From assembly GCF_006937785.1 (NCBI RefSeq), contig NZ_SJEE01000005.1, positions 124,001-188,000 of the forward strand: a DNA stretch of 64,000 bases, given 5' to 3'. The notes beneath the pieces are model-generated. The model was given only the letters and a program-made list of their open reading frames with translations, was not told the origin of the DNA and searched no databases. Of this stretch, positions 10,050-64,000 are shown piece by piece; position 1 is the stretch's first letter; every line of letters starts with the position of its first letter. The position numbers and the translations under genes are program-made. The DNA comes from Pseudanabaena sp. UWO311 (GTDB lineage Bacteria; Cyanobacteriota; Cyanobacteriia; Pseudanabaenales; Pseudanabaenaceae).

Positions 10050-10886
10050 ATGAAGTCATATTTGGCGGCTGCCGTACAAATGACCAGTGTCTCTGATGTA
10101 GATAAAAATCTTGCTCAAGCAGAAGATTTGATCCAACTGGCAGTGAATCGAGGTGCAGAATTAGTTTGTCTACCTGAAAACTTTTCGTTTTTAGGAGATG
10201 AGAACGAAAAGACAAGACTTTCTACAGAAATAGCAGAAAAGAGCGAAAAGTTTTTAATTACGATCGCTCAACGCTATCAAATCTTGTTACTTGGTGGTGG
10301 TTTTCCTGTGCCTGTTGCTGAAAGCAATAATGGTAATCGCGGCAAAATGTACAACACCGCCTTGTTGATTGGGCGTGAAGGTGAAGAATTAGCGCGTTAT
10401 CGAAAGATGCATCTATTTGATGTGAACCTCCCTGATGGCAATACTTATCAAGAGTCGGCTACGGTGCTAGCAGGCACTGAGTCTCCACCTGTATATATGT
10501 CCGAGAAATATGGCAACTTAGGGCTATCAGTTTGCTATGACGTAAGATTTCCAGAACTTTATCGTCATCTGTCCCAGCATGGTGCAAATGTATTGTTTGT
10601 TCCTGCTGCTTTTACGGCTTTTACTGGCAAAGATCATTGGCAAGTTTTATTGCAAGCTAGAGCAATTGAGAATACTAGCTATGTGATCGCACCTGCTCAA
10701 GTGGGAATGCATACGCCGCGCCGCCAGTCCCACGGTCATGCGATGATTGTCGATCCTTGGGGCATTGTCCTCGCTGATGCAGGCGATCGCATTGGTGTAG
10801 CGATCGCCGAAATTCAACCTTCGCGCATCGACCAAATTCGTCGCCAGATGCCATCCCTGCAACATCGGACTTTTTCCTGTTCTTAA
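10050..10886 (+). CDS. Carbon-nitrogen hydrolase (nitrilase superfamily, Nit1/Nit2-like amidase)
   Basis: A 278-residue amidase. The catalytic triad is visible: Glu in LVCLPENFSF (about residue 42), Lys in RYRKMHLFD (about 119) and Cys in LSVCYDVRFPE (about 161). The residues around these match the Nit branch, whose members hydrolyse deaminated glutathione or omega-amides (metabolite repair), so that function is likely but inferred. AAGGA 6 nt upstream supports the start. It is a single gene bracketed by phoU and a GNAT gene. Confidence 0.88.
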   Translation: MKSYLAAAVQMTSVSDVDKNLAQAEDLIQLAVNRGAELVCLPENFSFLGDENEKTRLSTEIAEKSEKFLITIAQRYQILLLGGGFPVPVAESNNGNRGKMYNTALLIGREGEELARYRKMHLFDVNLPDGNTYQESATVLAGTESPPVYMSEKYGNLGLSVCYDVRFPELYRHLSQHGANVLFVPAAFTAFTGKDHWQVLLQARAIENTSYVIAPAQVGMHTPRRQSHGHAMIVDPWGIVLADAGDRIGVAIAEIQPSRIDQIRRQMPSLQHRTFSCS

Positions 10887-10894
10887 GAACAAGA

Positions 10895-10947
10895 AAAAAC
10901 TAAAAACTGTACCGCCCGCTGCGCGGGCGGTACAGTTTTTAGTTTTT
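10895..10947. terminator. Long terminator after the Nit-like amidase (H class)
   Basis: Perfect 25-bp arms (left starts AAAAACTAAAAACTG, tip CCGCCCGC) with loop TGC, beginning 8 bp after the stop codon. A-run and T-run at the two ends allow function on both strands. Confidence 0.88.
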
Positions 10948-11063
10948 CTAATTTTGCCGATGGACTAAAGAACGATATTCAAAAAATATGTATTAAAATC
11001 ATAATCAACGATTTGTGCTGATTTTTACAGCTTTGATCAAATCCCTTTCTGGCATGAGTAGCT

Positions 11064-17361: not shown

Positions 17362-17416
17362 AAAACCAAAAACACAAGTGGCGGCGCGAAGCGCCGCCAC
17401 TTGTGTTTTTGGTTTT
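17362..17416. terminator. H-type long hairpin between convergent genes
   Basis: Perfect 26-bp arms around GAA: base AAAACCAAAAACAC, tip AGTGGCGGCGC. It sits between the secreted-protein gene and menC, beside a second 26-bp hairpin. Confidence 0.88.
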
Positions 17417-17417
17417 A

Positions 17418-17474
17418 TTGCTCATAGAAAGTTAAAGAGAGCGCAATTCGCTCTCTTTAACTTTCTATGAGCAA
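17418..17474. terminator. Perfect hairpin containing the 3' end of menC
   Basis: Perfect 26-bp arms with loop CAATT. The right arm includes the last codons and stop of menC (LLIES-stop), so the left arm is an exact inverted copy of coding sequence. Confidence 0.88.
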
Positions 17475-22191: not shown

Positions 22192-22254
22192 ATATAAAAC
22201 CCAAAAGATAAGTGGCGGCGCTTCGCGCCGCCACTTATCTTTTGGGTTTTATAT
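22192..22254. terminator. H-type long hairpin after LPOR
   Basis: Perfect 30-bp arms around TTC; base ATATAAAACCCAAAAGAT, tip AGTGGCGGCGC. It shares base and tip with the copies at 1119 and 17362 but differs in the middle. Confidence 0.88.
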
Positions 22255-27838: not shown

Positions 27839-27873
27839 ATATTAAAGATAGTGACTCGCGATATCTTTAATAT
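27839..27873. repeat. 12-bp palindrome upstream of the M16-like gene
   Basis: ATATTAAAGATA / TATCTTTAATAT around an 11-nt loop, 58 bp upstream of the ATG. Confidence 0.6.
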
Positions 27874-27880
27874 CCCTAGC

Positions 27881-27928
27881 TTATACCAATTAACAAAAGT
27901 GTGATGACACTTTTGTTAATTGGTATAA
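27881..27928. repeat. R1 element, single-hairpin form (copy C)
   Basis: Perfect 21-bp arms with loop GATG; both ends carry TTATACCAA / TTGGTATAA and the core is AAAAGTGT/ACACTTTT. It equals one half of R1 closed on itself. Confidence 0.87.
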
Positions 27929-27933
27929 CTAAC

Positions 27934-27980
27934 TGATCTCAAATCTGCAAGCGACACCCCCACTAGCAGATTTGGGATCA
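27934..27980. repeat. Hairpin, 15-bp arms
   Basis: TGATCTCAAATCTGC / GCAGATTTGGGATCA, one mismatch, 17-nt loop. Directly next to the R1 hairpin. Confidence 0.7.
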
Positions 27981-29776: not shown

Positions 29777-29835
29777 AATCCAAGAGTTTTGTTGAGAGTG
29801 TTGCGAGGCAACACTCTCAACAAAACTCTTGGATT
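29777..29835. terminator. H-type long hairpin after the HD-like gene
   Basis: Perfect 28-bp arms (left starts AATCCAAGAGTTTTG, tip GTGTTGC) around GAG, 12 bp after the stop codon. Confidence 0.88.
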
Positions 29836-29850
29836 TAGGGAACTCCAAAG

Positions 29851-29935
29851 AAAAAATGATCCATATAAAACCCCAAAATATAGCGGCGGGCGTAGCCCGC
29901 CGCTATATTCTGGGGTTTTATATGGATCATTTTTT
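29851..29935. repeat. H-type hairpin, longest copy (41-bp arms)
   Basis: 41-bp arms with one mismatch around GTA: base AAAAAATGATCC, then ATATAAAACCCC, tip CGGCGGGC. Flanking AACTCCAAAG / CCTTTGAGTTT extends the pairing further with small gaps. Confidence 0.88.
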
Positions 29936-29950
29936 CCTTTGAGTTTCCTA

Positions 29951-30033
29951 AGTACTTGTACTAAAAAAGTTACCGAAACCCGTAAAGTTGCGCCCCGCAG
30001 AGGCGAAACTTTATGGGTTTCGGTTTGTAATTA
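29951..30033. repeat. R2 repeat, copy 2
   Basis: Starts AGTACTTGTAC and ends GGTTTGTAATTAA, matching 8963-9046. Internal 23-bp arms (ACCGAAACCCGTAAAG...) pair with two mismatches. Confidence 0.75.
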
Positions 30034-32223: not shown

Positions 32224-32769
32224 ATTCTAGACAGGTATAGCTGTGGCTATTCTTTTTTAGGACATAAAACCCAAATATTGAGAGGCGGCGCAAAGCGCCG
32301 CCTCTCAATATTTGGGTTTTGATTTGTCTTTATAAAATTGGCTAAGGCTACACTTATAGCGATAGATCCCTTCTCCTGTGTTTCAAGGGGGAATGATTGA
32401 TTGAATTTTCATATCAAAAATGGTTATATGATTACGCCTGTAGATTAGATTAGAAAAACTTATTAAATAAATCAAAATATAAACGAAAACTCATCATTTT
32501 TTCAACCCACTAAAATACCTACAACTCTTTTGGGAAAACAGTTATAGATATTACGACAACCTTGAAAGCGATCGATAACTATCACCTATAACCAATGGTA
32601 GAAATAAAAAGCTAATTGTTCGCTTGGTTGCCAAGAACGATATGATGCGTGTTGATACCCTTGTGGGTGATTGAGATAAACGTAACTTGGTTGACCACCT
32701 TTAATTAGGTATAAGTTCAGGCTCTCGTTTATTTTTTTGGCTGCAATCTTTAAGAGGTTTATTACATAC
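32224..32769. other. Region upstream of petF with one H hairpin
   Basis: The H-type hairpin lies at 32266-32320; the remaining about 450 bp is AT-rich, without an open frame of note, and should contain the petF promoter and leader. Confidence 0.6.
32266..32320. terminator. H-type long hairpin after glyS
   Basis: Perfect 26-bp arms around AAA: base AAAACCCAAATATTG, tip GAGGCGGCGC. Confidence 0.88.
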
Positions 32770-33192: not shown

Positions 33193-33247
33193 AAACCAGT
33201 TTTGGGTTTCCCAGCGCCTGCGGCGCTGGGAAACCCAAAACTGGTTT
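33193..33247. repeat. H-type long hairpin upstream of murJ
   Basis: Perfect 25-bp arms with loop CTGCG; base AAACCAGTTTTGGG, tip CCCAGCGC. An AAACCAGTTTTGGG segment also occurs at 63174-63188. Confidence 0.88.
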
Positions 33248-36870: not shown

Positions 36871-37569
36871 ATGACAGCGATCGCTCCTCCCCCTATCAAA
36901 CAAAAGGAAAACTTAGCAGATTCACGATCCCAGCAACTCATCACTGATCAGTGGGTTAGTGCAACGTGGGACGAGTTTGTGCAGGTTCTCGAAAATCCTC
37001 TGTATGCAGAATCTCGTTGCTATTACGACACTAATCAAATTAAGCAAATGAGGATTGAAACTATGCCTGTGGGTTCAGAACATGCTGATGACAATACTCT
37101 GATCATCTTTGCGATTAGTTTATACTGCACATTAAAAAATATTCCTGCGAGAGGTTTGACCAATTGCAGCTATGTCAAAACAGGATGTAAAGGCTGTCAG
37201 CCAGACATCTCGTACTACATTGGTGAAGTTTCAGCCCGCGCACCTCGCAGTAGTTCCATCGTCAGTCTCGATGAATCTCCTGCACCAAATTTGGTGATTG
37301 AAATATCTAGTTCCACAATCAATGATGATTTAGGGAAGAAGCGCTTGCTGTATGAGCAGTTAGGTACTAGTGAATATTGGGTGATTGATGTCCAAGAGGT
37401 GAAAATTATCGCCTTAGAAATGTTAGAAAATGGGGGCAGTCGTCAAATTACCTCATCTAAATTATTAGGTGGACTAGAGATCGCTGATCTCGAAGCTGCA
37501 CTAAAACTCAGTCGCGAAAAATCTCAATCTGAAGTTGGGTCATGGCTATTACAGCGCTTTGCACTCTAA
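36871..37569 (+). CDS. Uma2-family restriction-endonuclease-like protein (DUF820)
   Basis: About 232 residues from ATG 36871, chosen because GGGAGA lies 9 nt upstream and because the longer frame would cross a small hairpin. The PD-(D/E)XK fold is indicated by QPDISYY (Asp) and PNLVIEISSSTINDDLGKKRLLYEQLGTSEYWVID (Glu-x-Ser and helix). Uma2/DUF820 genes are highly multiplied in cyanobacteria and their function is unsettled; some may be remnants of nuclease or mobile systems. Stand-alone gene with a long terminator. Confidence 0.88.
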   Translation: MTAIAPPPIKQKENLADSRSQQLITDQWVSATWDEFVQVLENPLYAESRCYYDTNQIKQMRIETMPVGSEHADDNTLIIFAISLYCTLKNIPARGLTNCSYVKTGCKGCQPDISYYIGEVSARAPRSSSIVSLDESPAPNLVIEISSSTINDDLGKKRLLYEQLGTSEYWVIDVQEVKIIALEMLENGGSRQITSSKLLGGLEIADLEAALKLSREKSQSEVGSWLLQRFAL

Positions 37570-37621
37570 AACCCGAAAAGAGAGTTGAGGCGTTTCGAGC
37601 CTCAACTCTCTTTTCGGGTTT
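37569..37621. terminator. H-type long hairpin after the Uma2 gene
   Basis: Perfect 23-bp arms (base AAACCCGAAAAGAG, tip TTGAGGC) around GTTTCGA; the left arm overlaps the stop codon. Confidence 0.87.
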
Positions 37622-54928: not shown

Positions 54929-57181
54929 ATGACAATGACTCCTCAAAAGCCAGACACAGAGGTAAAGGTATCGGTTGATCGTGACGTAGTACCTACTTCT
55001 TTCGAGAAGTGGGGACAACCTGGTCACTTTGATCGCACCTTAAAGAAGGGTCCAAAGACAACCACATGGATTTGGGATCTTCATGCCAATGTGCATGACT
55101 TTGACAGTTTCACAACCGAAGAAGATACTGCTCGTAAGATCTTCTCTGCTCACTTTGGGCATCTAGGTATTATTTTTATCTGGCTCAGTGGTATGTATTA
55201 CCACGGCGCAAAATTCTCCAACTACACTGGTTGGCTTGCCGATCCAGTCAACATTAAACCCAGCGCTCAAGTGGTCTGGAATGTTGTCGGTCAAGATATC
55301 TTGAACGGCGATGTTGGCGGCGGTTTCCAAGGTATTCAAATCACTTCTGGTTTGTTCCACCTTTGGAGAGCATCTGGTATCACCACGGAGTATCAACTCC
55401 TCTGCACCGCAATTGGCGGTTTGGTGATGGCTGGTTTAATGTTCTTCGCTGGTTGGTTTCACTACCACAAGGCAGCTCCTAAACTTGAGTGGTTTAAGAA
55501 TGCTGAATCGATGATGAACCACCACTTGGCTGGTTTACTCGGTTTGGGTTCACTCTCTTGGGCTGGACATCAGATCCATGTATCGATTCCTATCAACTAT
55601 TACCTTGATAAGGGCGTACCAGCGGATCAGATTCCTTTACCTCATGAGTTTATTTTCCATCCTGAGCTAATGGCAAAAATCTTCCCTAGCTTTGCTCAGG
55701 GTCTAACACCTTTCTTCACATTGAATTGGGGTGTTTATGCAGATTTCTTGACATTCAAAGGTGGATTGAATCCTCAAACTGGTTCTTTGTGGCTAACTGA
55801 CCAAGCTCACCATCACCTTGCGATCGCGACACTTTTCATCATCGCTGGACACATGTACCGCACCAACTTTGGTATCGGTCACAGCATGAAGGAAATCCTT
55901 GAAGCTCACAAGGGACCTTTAACTGGCGAAGGTCACAAGGGTCTATACGAAATTTTGACCTCTTCTTGGCATGCACAACTAGCAGTTAACTTGGCTTTGT
56001 TGGGCTCATTGAGCATAATCGTCGCTCAGCATATGTACGCGATGCCTGCTTATCCTTACATTGCCACTAGCTACGCTACCCAAGTTTCGCTATTTACACA
56101 CCACATGTGGATTGGCGGCTTCTGTATCTGTGGTGCTGCTGCTCACGCTGGCATTTTCATGGTTCGTGACTACGATCCTGCTAAGAATGTAAACAACTTG
56201 CTCGATCGCATGTTGCGCCAACGCGATGCAATCATCTCTCACCTTAACTGGGTATGTATCTTCCTTGGCTTCCACAGCTTTGGTCTTTACATCCACAACG
56301 ACACTATGCGTGCATTGGGTCGTCCTCAAGATATGTTCTCCGATACCGCAATTCAGTTGAAGCCTGTCTTCGCTAACTGGGTTCAAGGTATCCATGCTGC
56401 TGCTGCTGGTTCAACTGCTCCTTACGCAACTTCTGGCGTTAGCCCCATCTTCGGTGGCGACACTCTTGTAGTTGGTGGCAAAGTTGCAATGGCTCACATG
56501 GCTCTTGGTACTGCTGACTTCTTGGTTCATCACATCCATGCGTTTACCATTCACGTTACTGTCTTGATCTTGCTGAAAGGCGTGCTTTATGCCCGCAGCT
56601 CTCGCTTGGTTCCAGACAAAGCTGAACTTGGTTTCCGCTTCCCTTGCGACGGTCCTGGTCGTGGTGGCACATGTCAAGTTTCGGCATGGGATCACGTATT
56701 CCTCGGTCTTTTCTGGATGTACAACTGTATCTCAGTTGTAATCTTCCACTTCTCTTGGAAAATGCAGTCTGATATTTTCGGTACTGTTGACGCAAGTGGC
56801 ACAATCACTAACATGGCTGGCGGTAACTTTGCACAGAGTGCATTGACCATCAACGGTTGGTTGCGTGACTTCTTGTGGGCTCAAGCTTCCAACGTTATTC
56901 AATCCTACGGTTCGGCATTGTCGGCTTACGGTTTGATCTTCTTGGGCGCTCACTTCATCTGGGCTTTCAGCCTTATGTTCCTGTTCAGTGGCCGTGGTTA
57001 CTGGCAAGAACTAATTGAGTCAATCGTTTGGGCACATAACAAGCTCAACGTTGCTCCAGCTATTTCTCCTCGCGCTTTGAGCATCACTCAAGGTCGTGCT
57101 GTGGGTCTAGCTCACTACCTATTAGGTGGAATTGCCACAACTTGGGCATTCTTCCTAGCCCGTTACGGTGCACTTGGCTAA
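54929..57181 (+). CDS. psaA: Photosystem I core protein PsaA
   Basis: One of the two reaction-centre subunits that bind P700, most antenna chlorophylls, phylloquinone and the FX iron-sulfur cluster. 750 residues, eleven expected transmembrane helices. The FX loop [18 protein letters not shown] is near residues 570-587 with its two Cys. Many His-containing chlorophyll sites ([14 protein letters not shown]) are visible. GAGAGGAAAA precedes the ATG. psaB follows 25 bp downstream, the usual dicistronic order. Confidence 0.99.
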
Positions 57182-57206
57182 TATTAACGGAGAAATTGAA
57201 GTAATT

Positions 57207-59423
57207 ATGGCAACGAAATTTCCTAAGTTTAGCCAGGCTCTCGCACAGGATCCAACAACCCGTCGGATCTGGTATGCGATCGCCACAGCGAACGATTTTG
57301 AAAGTCACGATGGTGTTACTGAAGAAAGTCTTTACCAAAAGATTTTTGCTTCACACTTCGGTCATTTGGCAATCATCTTCCTGTGGACATCTGGCAACCT
57401 GTTTCACGTAGCGTGGCAGGGTAACTTCGAGCAATGGATTCAAAATCCTCTCACCACACGTCCGATCGCCCATGCGATTTGGGATCCTCACTTCGGTAAG
57501 GCGGCTGTTGAAGCATTCACTCAAACTGATGCTGCTGGCCCCGTAAACATCGCTTATTCGGGTGTTTACCACTGGTGGTACACCATCGGTATGCGTACCA
57601 ACGCTGAACTATTTACTGGTGCTATCTGGATGCTAGTATTTGCATCGATTCTGCTTTTTGCAGGTTGGTTGCACTTACAGCCTAGTTTCCGTCCTAGCCT
57701 TTCTTGGTTCAAGAATGCTGAATCTCGTCTAAACCACCACTTGGCTGGTTTGTTCGGAGCTAGCTCTTTGGCTTGGACTGGTCACATGGTTCACGTTGCG
57801 ATTCCTGAGTCTCGCGGTATTCATGTCGGTTGGGACAACTTCTTGAGCGTTCCTCCTCATCCAGCAGGGCTTGCGCCTTTCTTCACAGGCAACTGGGGCG
57901 TATATGCTCAGAATCCTGATACTGCAGGTCATGTGTTTGGTTCATCTCAAGGTGCTGGTACTGCAATCTTGACTTTCCTTGGTGGTTTCCATCCTCAAAC
58001 TGAGTCTCTTTGGATGACTGACATCGCGCATCACCACTTGGCGATCGCTGTATTGTTCATCATTGCTGGTCACATGTACCGTACTAATTTTGGTATTGGT
58101 CACAGTATCAAAGAAATCTTGAATGCTCACAATCCTCCTAAAGGCACTCCTTTCGGCGGTGCGTTAGGCGCTGGACACAAGGGCTTGTATGACACAATCA
58201 ACAACTCCTTGCACTTCCAACTAGGCTTGGCTCTTGCTTCTTTGGGTGTAATCACATCATTAGTCGCTCAGCACATGTACTCGATGCCTTCCTATGCGTT
58301 TATCGCTAAGGACTTCACCACTCAAGCTGCTCTATATACTCATCACCAATATATTGCTGGTTTCTTGATGGTCGGTGCATTTGCTCACGGTGCGATCTTC
58401 TTCGTTCGTGACTACGATCCTGAAGCTAACAAAGACAATGTGCTTGCACGTATGCTTGAGCACAAAGAAGCGATCATCTCTCACCTTAGCTGGGTATCTC
58501 TTTTCTTAGGCTTCCACACTCTTGGTATCTACGTTCATAACGATGTAATGCAAGCGTTTGGCACTCCAGAAAAGCAAATCTTGATCGAGCCTGTATTCGC
58601 ACAGTGGATTCAAGCCGCTCACGGTAAGGCTCTCTATGGTTTTGATGTATTGCTTTCCAATGCTTCAAGCATTCCTTCAAATGCTGGTGCTGCTTGGCTA
58701 CCTGGTTGGTTAGCTGGAATTAATGCTGGAGACAACTCGTTGTTCCTTCAAATTGGTCCTGGCGACTTCTTGGTTCACCATGCGATCGCTCTAGGTCTAC
58801 ACACCACCACCTTGATCTTGGTTAAGGGTGCGTTGGATGCTCGTGGATCTAAGCTTATGCCAGACAAGAAAGACTTCGGGTACAGCTTCCCTTGCGACGG
58901 CCCTGGTCGTGGCGGTACTTGCGATATCTCGGCATGGGATTCCTTCTACCTCGCTATGTTCTGGATGTTGAATACCATTGGTTGGACAACCTTCTACTGG
59001 CACTGGAAACACCTCGGTGTATGGCAAGGTAACGTTGCTCAGTTCAACGAATCCTCGGTCACCATCATGGGCTGGCTCCGTGACTACCTATGGCTCAACT
59101 CTGCTCAGTTGATCAATGGCTATAACCCCTATGGCATGAACAATATCTCTGTTTGGGCTTGGATGTTCCTCTTCGGACACCTAGTTTGGGCAACTGGATT
59201 CATGTTCTTGATCTCTTGGCGTGGTTATTGGCAAGAATTGATCGAAACCCTTGTATGGGCGCACCAACGCACACCTCTTGCAAGTTTGGTTCAGTGGAAA
59301 GACAAGCCTGTGGCTCTCTCCATCGTTCAAGCTCGTTTGGTTGGCTTGGCTCACTTCACGATTGGATACATACTCACGTATGCAGCCTTCTTGATCGCCT
59401 CAACAGCAACGGCTTTCGGTTAA
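57207..59423 (+). CDS. psaB: Photosystem I core protein PsaB
   Basis: The partner of PsaA in the P700 heterodimer. 738 residues from ATG 57207 ([14 protein letters not shown]), with GGAGAA about 15 nt upstream; the longer frame starting at 57168 overlaps psaA and lacks conservation. FX loop [18 protein letters not shown] near 556-573, and the helix motifs [25 protein letters not shown] are typical. A strong terminator ends the operon. Confidence 0.99.
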
Positions 59424-63046: not shown

Positions 63047-63170
63047 GTTTACAGGGCTTGTATTGCTTGTTTTTTGAAGCTTTGGACTTAATAGAGATCG
63101 CTAATTTTTTGCTTAAATTTAGCCTTATCAATTTAACATTCTTTATCAAGAATTCAGACCAGAAAAGATT

Positions 63171-64000
63171 ATGAAACCAGTTTTGGGAGTTTTCGCGTCG
63201 GTCTTAAGTACTTCGGCACAATTAAAAAACAGAACCAAAACCTGTTCTGCCCGCTATGCGAGCAGAACAGGTTTTGGGTTTTTAATTGGGTCTATCTACT
63301 TATTAGTTGGTGTGAGTTATGCAGATGTGGCGATCGCGCAACTGCGTGAAAAGCCACCGCAAAAAGTGCAGATCCAGCAACAGATTGTTGTGCCACCCAA
63401 TGAAACTGCCGATCAGCTTTTAGAGCGTGGTAATGCCTATGTGCGACTAGGGAATTTGGAAGGGGCGGTGGTGATTTTTCAAGCCGCGATTAAGAAAAAT
63501 CCTGAACTCACGGCTGCACATTACAACCTCGGTCTGGCTTACGCACAGGGGGGCAAGCTCAAAGAAGCCATTCATTCTTTTCAACGGGCAACCAGGCTCG
63601 ATCCAAAGTTTGCAATGGCTTTTAGCAATTTAGGTGCAGCACAGTTGCAGTCGGGAGATCCTAATCAAGCCATATCTAATTTACAAAAAGCCGTTCGTCT
63701 CGATCCCAAGCTCTCAGTCGCCTATTACAATCTGGGTCTGGCCTTTAAAGACAAAAAGGATATAAATAACGCGATCGCAAATCTCAATCAAGCTCTGAAG
63801 CTAAATCCTCAAGCTCCCGAAACGATTTATAACTTAGGTTTATTAATTCAAACTCAGGGTGATCTCTCAAAGGCAATATCCTACTATGCCAAAGCGTTGC
63901 AACTGAATCCCGAATATGCAGAGGCTTATTACAATTTGGGAGCGGCTTTATTAATTCAAGGTGAAACGGAAAAGGCGATCGGGCAACTGCGTAATGCTTT
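63171..64000 (+). CDS. TPR-repeat protein with N-terminal signal segment (runs off window)
   Basis: An open frame of 276 codons with no stop before the window end. It begins MKPVLGVFASVLSTSAQL; a hydrophobic segment FGFLIGSIYLLVGVSYADVA near 36-56 is a late signal or anchor. From about residue 80 at least five or six TPR units follow (AAHYNLGLAYAQGGKLKEAI, AFSNLGAAQLQSGDPNQAI, AYYNLGLAFKDKKDINNAI, ETIYNLGLLIQTQGDLSKAI). Residues about 17-39 are encoded by a hairpin repeat in frame, which lengthens the N-terminal region before the hydrophobic segment. The partner is unknown. Confidence 0.85.
   Translation, partial: MKPVLGVFASVLSTSAQLKNRTKTCSARYASRTGFGFLIGSIYLLVGVSYADVAIAQLREKPPQKVQIQQQIVVPPNETADQLLERGNAYVRLGNLEGAVVIFQAAIKKNPELTAAHYNLGLAYAQGGKLKEAIHSFQRATRLDPKFAMAFSNLGAAQLQSGDPNQAISNLQKAVRLDPKLSVAYYNLGLAFKDKKDINNAIANLNQALKLNPQAPETIYNLGLLIQTQGDLSKAISYYAKALQLNPEYAEAYYNLGAALLIQGETEKAIGQLRNA
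63220..63287 (+). repeat. H-type hairpin inside the TPR coding frame
   Basis: Outer AATTAAAAAAC / GTTTTTAATT, inner AAAACCTGTTCTGC / GCAGAACAGGTTTT, tip CGC-TAT-GCG, with a few mismatches and a small bulge on the left. It is translated through as about 22 residues. Confidence 0.8.

Follow-up and report, generated by a model that had tools for sequence, protein, structure and literature searches.

In the window that was analyzed, 64 kb of the genome of Pseudanabaena sp. UWO311 (G000, a 5.2-Mb draft; contig C47:124001-188000), one copy of an IS630-type MITE lies in frame within a gene for a TPR-repeat protein, at the place where the signal peptide is encoded. The element used a TA target and contributes a net length of 96 nt, the same insertion is present in a second species, and the host gene has remained under selection. 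It is very probable that the inserted DNA is translated, that it rebuilds the hydrophobic core of the signal peptide, and that the leader is cleaved off, which would leave the mature protein unchanged.

A 96-nt insert in the 5' part of a TPR gene

The TPR gene comprises 336 codons including the insert, and its frame is uninterrupted from the ATG at 63171. The orthologues across the genus have about 304 codons and near-identical first 12 residues (MKPVLGVFASVL), and they match the UWO311 gene in sequence type starting where the signal peptide ends. In about 20 orthologues the segment 63207-63302 is missing and its flanks are joined directly, so that the difference is exactly 96 nt. At the insert-free join GTCTTA is followed by GTAGTTGG in G019 and G012, and by TTAGTTGG in G024 (L042). 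The features of the gene and of the insert are:

63171..64000, + strand: gene for a secreted TPR-repeat protein, continuing beyond the window end to about 64181 (open frame, TPR families, orthologues)
63171..63206, + strand: codons 1-12, MKPVLGVFASVL, with the original start and the initial half of the core of the original signal peptide, which the insert has cut off from the remainder (same in insert-free orthologues)
63207..63302, + strand: inserted DNA of 96 nt, which comprises codons 13-44 and one of the two TA copies (absent from orthologues)
63205..63302, + strand: whole MITE from TA to TA, 98 nt, the family mode being 105 nt (covariance-model match C47:187205-187302, 97.8 bits, E 1.6e-14)
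63205..63206 and 63301..63302, no strand: first and second copy of the target TA (sequence; CTTA flank on both sides)
63205..63228, + strand: left terminal inverted repeat TAAGTACTTCGGCACAATTAAAAA, 24 nt (arm pairing, family repeat)
63279..63302, - strand: right terminal inverted repeat, 24 nt, TAAGTAGATAGACCCAATTAAAAA on the - strand (arm pairing, family repeat)
63235..63277, no strand: central hairpin with 20-nt arms (63235-63254 and 63258-63277), a 3-nt loop and 95% complementarity (pairing, folding)

Folding of the 140 nt from the ATG onward gave -47.2 kcal/mol, versus -30.0 +/- 3.6 for shuffled sequences (z -4.8, none of 200 as good), and a z of -8.0 was obtained when the 96-nt insert was folded alone. 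Read in frame, the insert is free of stops, a multiple of three in length, and devoid of ATG, GTG and TTG; in the second species it is likewise a stop-free multiple of three. Between the two species the palindrome loop 63250-63265 looks inverted (GCTATGC versus TCGTAGC in L020 of G018), with altered residues and the same length, and loops of the MITE family occur in both orientations as well.

The original prediction had described a hairpin repeat of an "H type" inside a continuous frame, and hairpin, repeat nature and frame were all recovered. The check named with it, a comparison with orthologues lacking the hairpin, was run and revealed a clean insertion of a multiple of three. The predicted extent was too small: 63220-63287, with about 22 residues, is only the inner palindrome, while the extra DNA encompasses 32 codons. 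Also its placement just before the hydrophobic segment has to be revised, because the right arm of the insert provides half of that segment.

Directly 5' of the TPR start, the block 63129-63170 (CAATTTAACATTCTTTATCAAGAATTCAGACCAGAAAAGATT) is near-invariant in many relatives despite a widely diverged gene body. It is possibly a regulatory or an RNA feature, to judge from this conservation.

The insert belongs to a mobile MITE family

A search of the UWO311 genome with the hairpin yielded 17 matches, with some palindromes counted on both strands. Reading the surroundings of these matches revealed the terminal inverted repeats TAAGTAnCTnnGCAyAATTAAA. When up to three mismatches were allowed, this pattern had 121 matches in the genome, versus 3 for the reversed control pattern. 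A covariance model of the family was built from 19 copies, and it gave at least 148 hits on both strands of the UWO311 genome, i.e., at least about 80 places. The same model showed that the family is nearly confined to Pseudanabaena, as far as 26 genomes of the genus and 12 other genomes of the bacterial family are concerned: it was present in all 26 of the former (34 to at least 104 hits each), and among the latter one had 2 hits and eleven had none. The copies are 88-111 nt long, do not code for a transposase, carry terminal inverted repeats and are dispersed (about 80 copies), as expected for a MITE. Compensatory changes between family copies were found in 13 of the 20 hairpin pairs; such changes are expected of any palindrome that keeps its pairing and are thus no proof by themselves of an RNA function.

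For 24 other copies the flanks were joined with one TA between them, and six relatives were searched with the joined sequences. At least nine of these copies had an empty site in a relative, with uninterrupted flanks and a single TA, and thus the family inserts at TA and duplicates it. Target duplication and mobility were therefore both found, and the TPR site itself has an empty allele. The earlier claim that the repeats move is borne out by these empty sites; for the accompanying claim that they "form" in coding DNA no evidence was obtained.

The window contains a second copy of the family:

10870..10968, no strand: degenerate copy at the end of a nitrilase-like gene (model match C47:134870-134968)

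The surroundings of this copy were too variable to show a target site. A frame of at least 100 codons ends inside the MITE in 23 of 81 copies in the UWO311 genome (e.g., 10870-10968, L236, L170 and L208), and MITE ends often supply stop codons to neighbouring frames. The MITE hairpin followed by a T/A-rich tract could in addition act as a terminator for the neighbouring gene. Scanning the window with Rfam at the Rfam thresholds returned nothing, plasmid records gave no match either, and no description of the MITE family or of Pseudanabaena MITEs was found in the part of the literature that was searched.

The ends of the MITE are those of IS630 elements

Complete elements with the same kind of ends as the MITE were detected in G021 (L185, 626-1700, 1075 bp, both ends TAAGTAGTTAGACAAAATTAAT) and in G013 (L179, 817-1999). 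Each of them surrounds a transposase of 345-358 aa, and the two transposases scored 212 and 228 bits against the NCBIfam IS630 model, which has a cut-off of 100. Full-length IS630 relatives have a DDE transposase with a helix-turn-helix domain. The TA target and the ends in common with a complete IS630 element assign the MITE to the IS630 / Tc1-mariner kind. Relatives of the transposase occur in 6 of the 26 genus genomes, with many copies in G009, G017 and G019, and none was found in the UWO311 draft genome itself. The shared ends suggest that a transposase of the G021 type would mobilise the short MITE.

Related IS630 elements were also seen at contig ends, namely of the contigs C16, C38, C47, C59, C85 and C89 of G019 and of several contigs of G017 and G009. 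They are thus multi-copy and break assemblies, and the copy numbers in the drafts of G019, G017 and G009 are probably underestimated.

Effect of the insert on the signal peptide

The insert-free orthologues start with MKPVLGVFASVLVVGVSYADVAIAQ..., a short predicted signal peptide of 24 residues that ends in the likely cleavage motif AIA/Q (cleavage before Q). The leader with the insert is MKPVLGVFASVL-STSAQLKNRTKTCSARYASRTGFGFLIGSIYL-LVGVSYADVAIA, again followed by Q, and the predicted mature protein begins with QLREKP. The MITE splits the original hydrophobic core. Its residues are polar and positively charged at first and then hydrophobic, and the hydrophobic ones join the remaining host core. 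Two features were predicted for the rebuilt leader:

63267..63323, + strand: predicted new hydrophobic core, residues 33-51, TGFGFLIGSIYLLVGVSYA, with 12 residues from the MITE and 7 from the host (from hydropathy)
63330..63341, + strand: predicted signal-peptidase site AIA/Q, after residue 56, kept in orthologues (from orthologues and motif)

According to hydropathy, the peak is at residues 4-18 without the insert and at residues 34-48 with the insert, and the new core is weaker than the old one (best 11-residue mean of 2.35-2.61 versus 2.91-3.05). Four to five net positive charges precede the cleavage motif. Judged on sequence and hydropathy, the rebuilt leader has a positive n-region, a hydrophobic core and an AxA motif, and it is long (56 residues). 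The insert appears to have replaced half of the export signal. We infer that translation starts at the ATG 63171 and that a working signal peptide is cleaved at AIA/Q. The strong hairpin in the mRNA could lower the translation of the TPR gene.

The proposed course of events is as follows. With a related IS630 transposase acting in trans, an IS630-type (Tc1/mariner) MITE of about 100 bp would have jumped into the TA of a TTA codon, at a point where the TPR gene encodes its signal peptide. With a copy that is stop-free and a multiple of three in its orientation, 32 extra residues would be translated from the original ATG. The MITE sequence would provide an n-region with positive charges (KNRTKTCSARYASR) and the beginning of the new core (TGFGFLIGSIYL), which would be joined to the host residues LVGVSYA and the unchanged AIA/Q. 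Signal peptidase would then remove the leader and release the mature TPR protein as before, and the insertion would be tolerated because the leader is removed and the mature protein is unchanged.

Insertions into genes are rare

About 83% of the window is coding, counted as long open frames, and thus random insertion without selection would put most copies into genes. Among the 81 copies of the UWO311 genome with usable surroundings, no copy but this one in the window lies within a long gene that starts upstream of the element. A stop-free sequence with a length that is a multiple of three was found for 9 of the 486 combinations of copy, strand and phase (1.9%); most copies would cause a frameshift or introduce stop codons, and a frameshift also follows from the commonest insert length, 103 nt. 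In a further set of 60 copies, taken from other genomes, the element is crossed by a long frame in two cases (L399 and L442), only near the 5' end of the frame, and the true starts of both may be downstream of the element. A genus-wide translated search with the 32-residue insert revealed a long stop-free frame only at the TPR gene in G000 and G018, and no third case. Selection against coding insertions is likely the rule, and the TPR copy the exception. With these numbers, the general claim of the original prediction that such repeats are tolerated in coding DNA could not be upheld.

Selection on the host gene and history of the insertion

Between the two insert-bearing species, the body of the TPR gene has a dN of 0.036 and a dS of 0.721 (dN/dS about 0.05), showing that the gene is still needed. 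The ratio was 0.03-0.08 when the insert-bearing species were compared with their insert-free neighbours. At this site the predicted tolerance is thus supported. In the insert, the two species differ by 8 nonsynonymous changes and 1 synonymous change, versus 30 and 85 in the rest of the gene (Fisher p 0.0003). Its residues are thus not conserved as those of a peptide, and a reading of the insert as a selected peptide was rejected.

The second insert-bearing genome is G018, and the same leader as in G018 is found in Phormidium tenue FACHB-1050 (L083). The G018 insert is 91% identical to the window insert and has the same short right arm, and no other copy in G000 or G018 reaches this value (the best have 82-86%, and are partial). 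Independent insertions in the two genomes could thus be ruled out, and one insertion is common to both. In the gene-body tree G000 groups with G019 and G012, and G018 with G020, G010 and G005, and all these neighbours are insert-free. Trees in which G000 and G018 form one clade were rejected, with a p-AU of 3e-11 for the gene body and of 1e-8 for the upstream region. Because the two genomes are not sisters, a single simple insertion does not account for the history: either the insertion is ancestral and precise losses followed several times, or the insert was exchanged in a short tract by recombination.

The sites typical of the G018 clade come as close as about 15 nt on the 5' side of the insert and about 40 nt on its 3' side, and thus any exchanged tract would be short. 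A 3-nt deletion beside the insert site is common to G020, G010 and G005 and absent in G018, in conflict with the body tree. Elsewhere (10.5 kb) G000 is closest to G020, with 92%, so that the genomes look mosaic. The low dS of the insert, 0.067 versus 0.721 for the gene body, was rejected as a proof of recent transfer, since a slow rate (dS 0.11-0.18, insert-free pairs included) also characterizes the remainder of the signal-peptide region. A wider idea would be that translated mobile hairpins find a safe harbour in signal peptides, that the MITE supplies a functional n-region and half of the core and is cleaved off together with the leader, and that filled and empty alleles move between species, via short-tract recombination or precise loss, as exchangeable forms of the signal peptide; this is tentative and, on balance, doubtful.

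Other repeats in the window

Other strong hairpins, of the type AACCCAAAA...GGCGGCGC...TTTTGGGTT and without TAAGTA ends, are located at 17362-17418, 22192-22254, 32266-32320, 37569-37621 and 33193-33247. The central hairpin of the MITE looks like such a solo hairpin framed by IS630 ends, and the "H type" introduced above may comprise both solo hairpins and copies of the MITE. At 27866-27943 there is a further dispersed hairpin repeat (ATACCAATT..ACAAAAGTGTG..ACACTT..), and a relative of it lies in the right flank of the G000 copy L155 (C61:124349 onward), with dozens of matches in related genomes. Furthermore, the window contains a very long palindrome at 29835-29951 (57-nt arms, 93% complementary, 3-nt loop) and, at 55477-58968, two pairs of long direct repeats, which are about 2.2 kb apart, are 70-71% identical, and are probably duplicated genes.

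Alternative explanations

The same MITE insertion could have broken the signal peptide, so that the protein would be cytoplasmic or membrane-anchored and the gene damaged in the two insert-bearing species. The split of the original core and the weaker replacement core would fit to this explanation, but a damaged gene is unlikely in view of the low dN/dS of the gene body, in both comparisons described above, and in view of the fact that neither insert-bearing copy has acquired a stop or a frameshift. A very unlikely explanation is that the hairpin is not translated at all, and that the start is downstream and the element acts on expression from within the 5' leader. The hairpin is strong, and N-terminal repeats may be extragenic if a start has been misassigned, as noted for REPs in PMC3733652. 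However, the ATG 63171 and about 40 nt upstream of it are conserved in the insert-free orthologues, in which the signal peptide has to begin there, and the insert is a stop-free multiple of three in both species. The insert itself offers no ATG, GTG or TTG in this frame, and the only standard in-frame start between insert and cleavage site, the GTG 63312, would leave no hydrophobic core. A start downstream of the hairpin, the result that had been named in advance as speaking against the original prediction, is thus unlikely.

The explanation with the lowest probability, which we regard as extremely small, is that the palindrome arose in place, or that it is an element of the REP/RAYT type (with a tyrosine transposase) rather than an IS630 MITE. 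The terminal repeat of many copies contains GTAG, and the window has solo hairpins that are similar to the central one of the MITE. Against this stand the terminal repeats common to dispersed copies, the TA duplication at empty sites, and the ends that match complete IS630 elements. REP and REPIN sequences are tied to a tyrosine (Y1) transposase (RAYT) and do not duplicate their target; the element in the TPR gene was not assigned to them, because its TA is duplicated and its ends belong to IS630 elements. An in-frame IS630-type MITE that is translated and removed with the leader thus is the preferred reading.

Comparison with known systems

The case for in-frame, translated MITEs is usually made from single genomes. 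In the present case the empty site, the target duplication, the family, the parent IS type and a second species come together, and the host is a free-living cyanobacterium. A simple reason for the tolerance is suggested, namely that the foreign residues are in a part of the protein that gets removed, and the idea that mobile DNA gives rise to new protein sequence becomes directly testable.

A precedent for the target site choice is the cyanobacterial IS630 element ISY100 of Synechocystis, which was shown in vitro to insert almost exclusively at TA and to duplicate it (PMC2170065). The Pseudanabaena MITE is similar in its TA target with duplication and its terminal inverted repeats. It differs in that ISY100 is a full element, whereas the MITE is short and non-autonomous and has a strong internal hairpin; the likeness is one of kind. 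Nezha and other MITEs of Anabaena and Nostoc are cited as small, non-autonomous elements of cyanobacteria, again a likeness in kind.

The palindromic elements of Rickettsia (RPEs), to which the insert had originally been likened, are also palindromes of about 100-150 bp that are in frame and translated while the host gene is kept. The likeness holds for the effect at the TPR site, but not for the habit. According to the summary in PMC10969869, nearly half of the 44 RPEs of R. conorii are located in genes, whereas for the Pseudanabaena family, which has the ends and the target of an IS630 element, this is true for 1 of 81 copies. A recurrent in-frame location in unrelated genes, as for RPEs, was not seen, because the genus-wide translated search gave only the two orthologous insertions, and thus the MITE is not classed as an RPE. 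The ERIC/RU elements of Enterobacteriaceae are MITEs with TA ends and TA duplication that are found in frame in genes, e.g., RU-2 in YPO1552 of Y. pestis (PMC2759123). They occur in another host and are likened here by kind rather than by sequence, and for the Pseudanabaena MITE the orthologues reveal, in addition, precisely where the site is empty and which IS type is the parent. The QMITE2 of Coxiella is also described in frame (PMC5896051). By analogy, the RPEs and the enterobacterial RU-2 can be regarded as functional analogues of the TPR insertion. Taken together, the TPR insertion is very probably a clean natural case of mobile DNA read as protein, and it is kin to cases in other bacteria.
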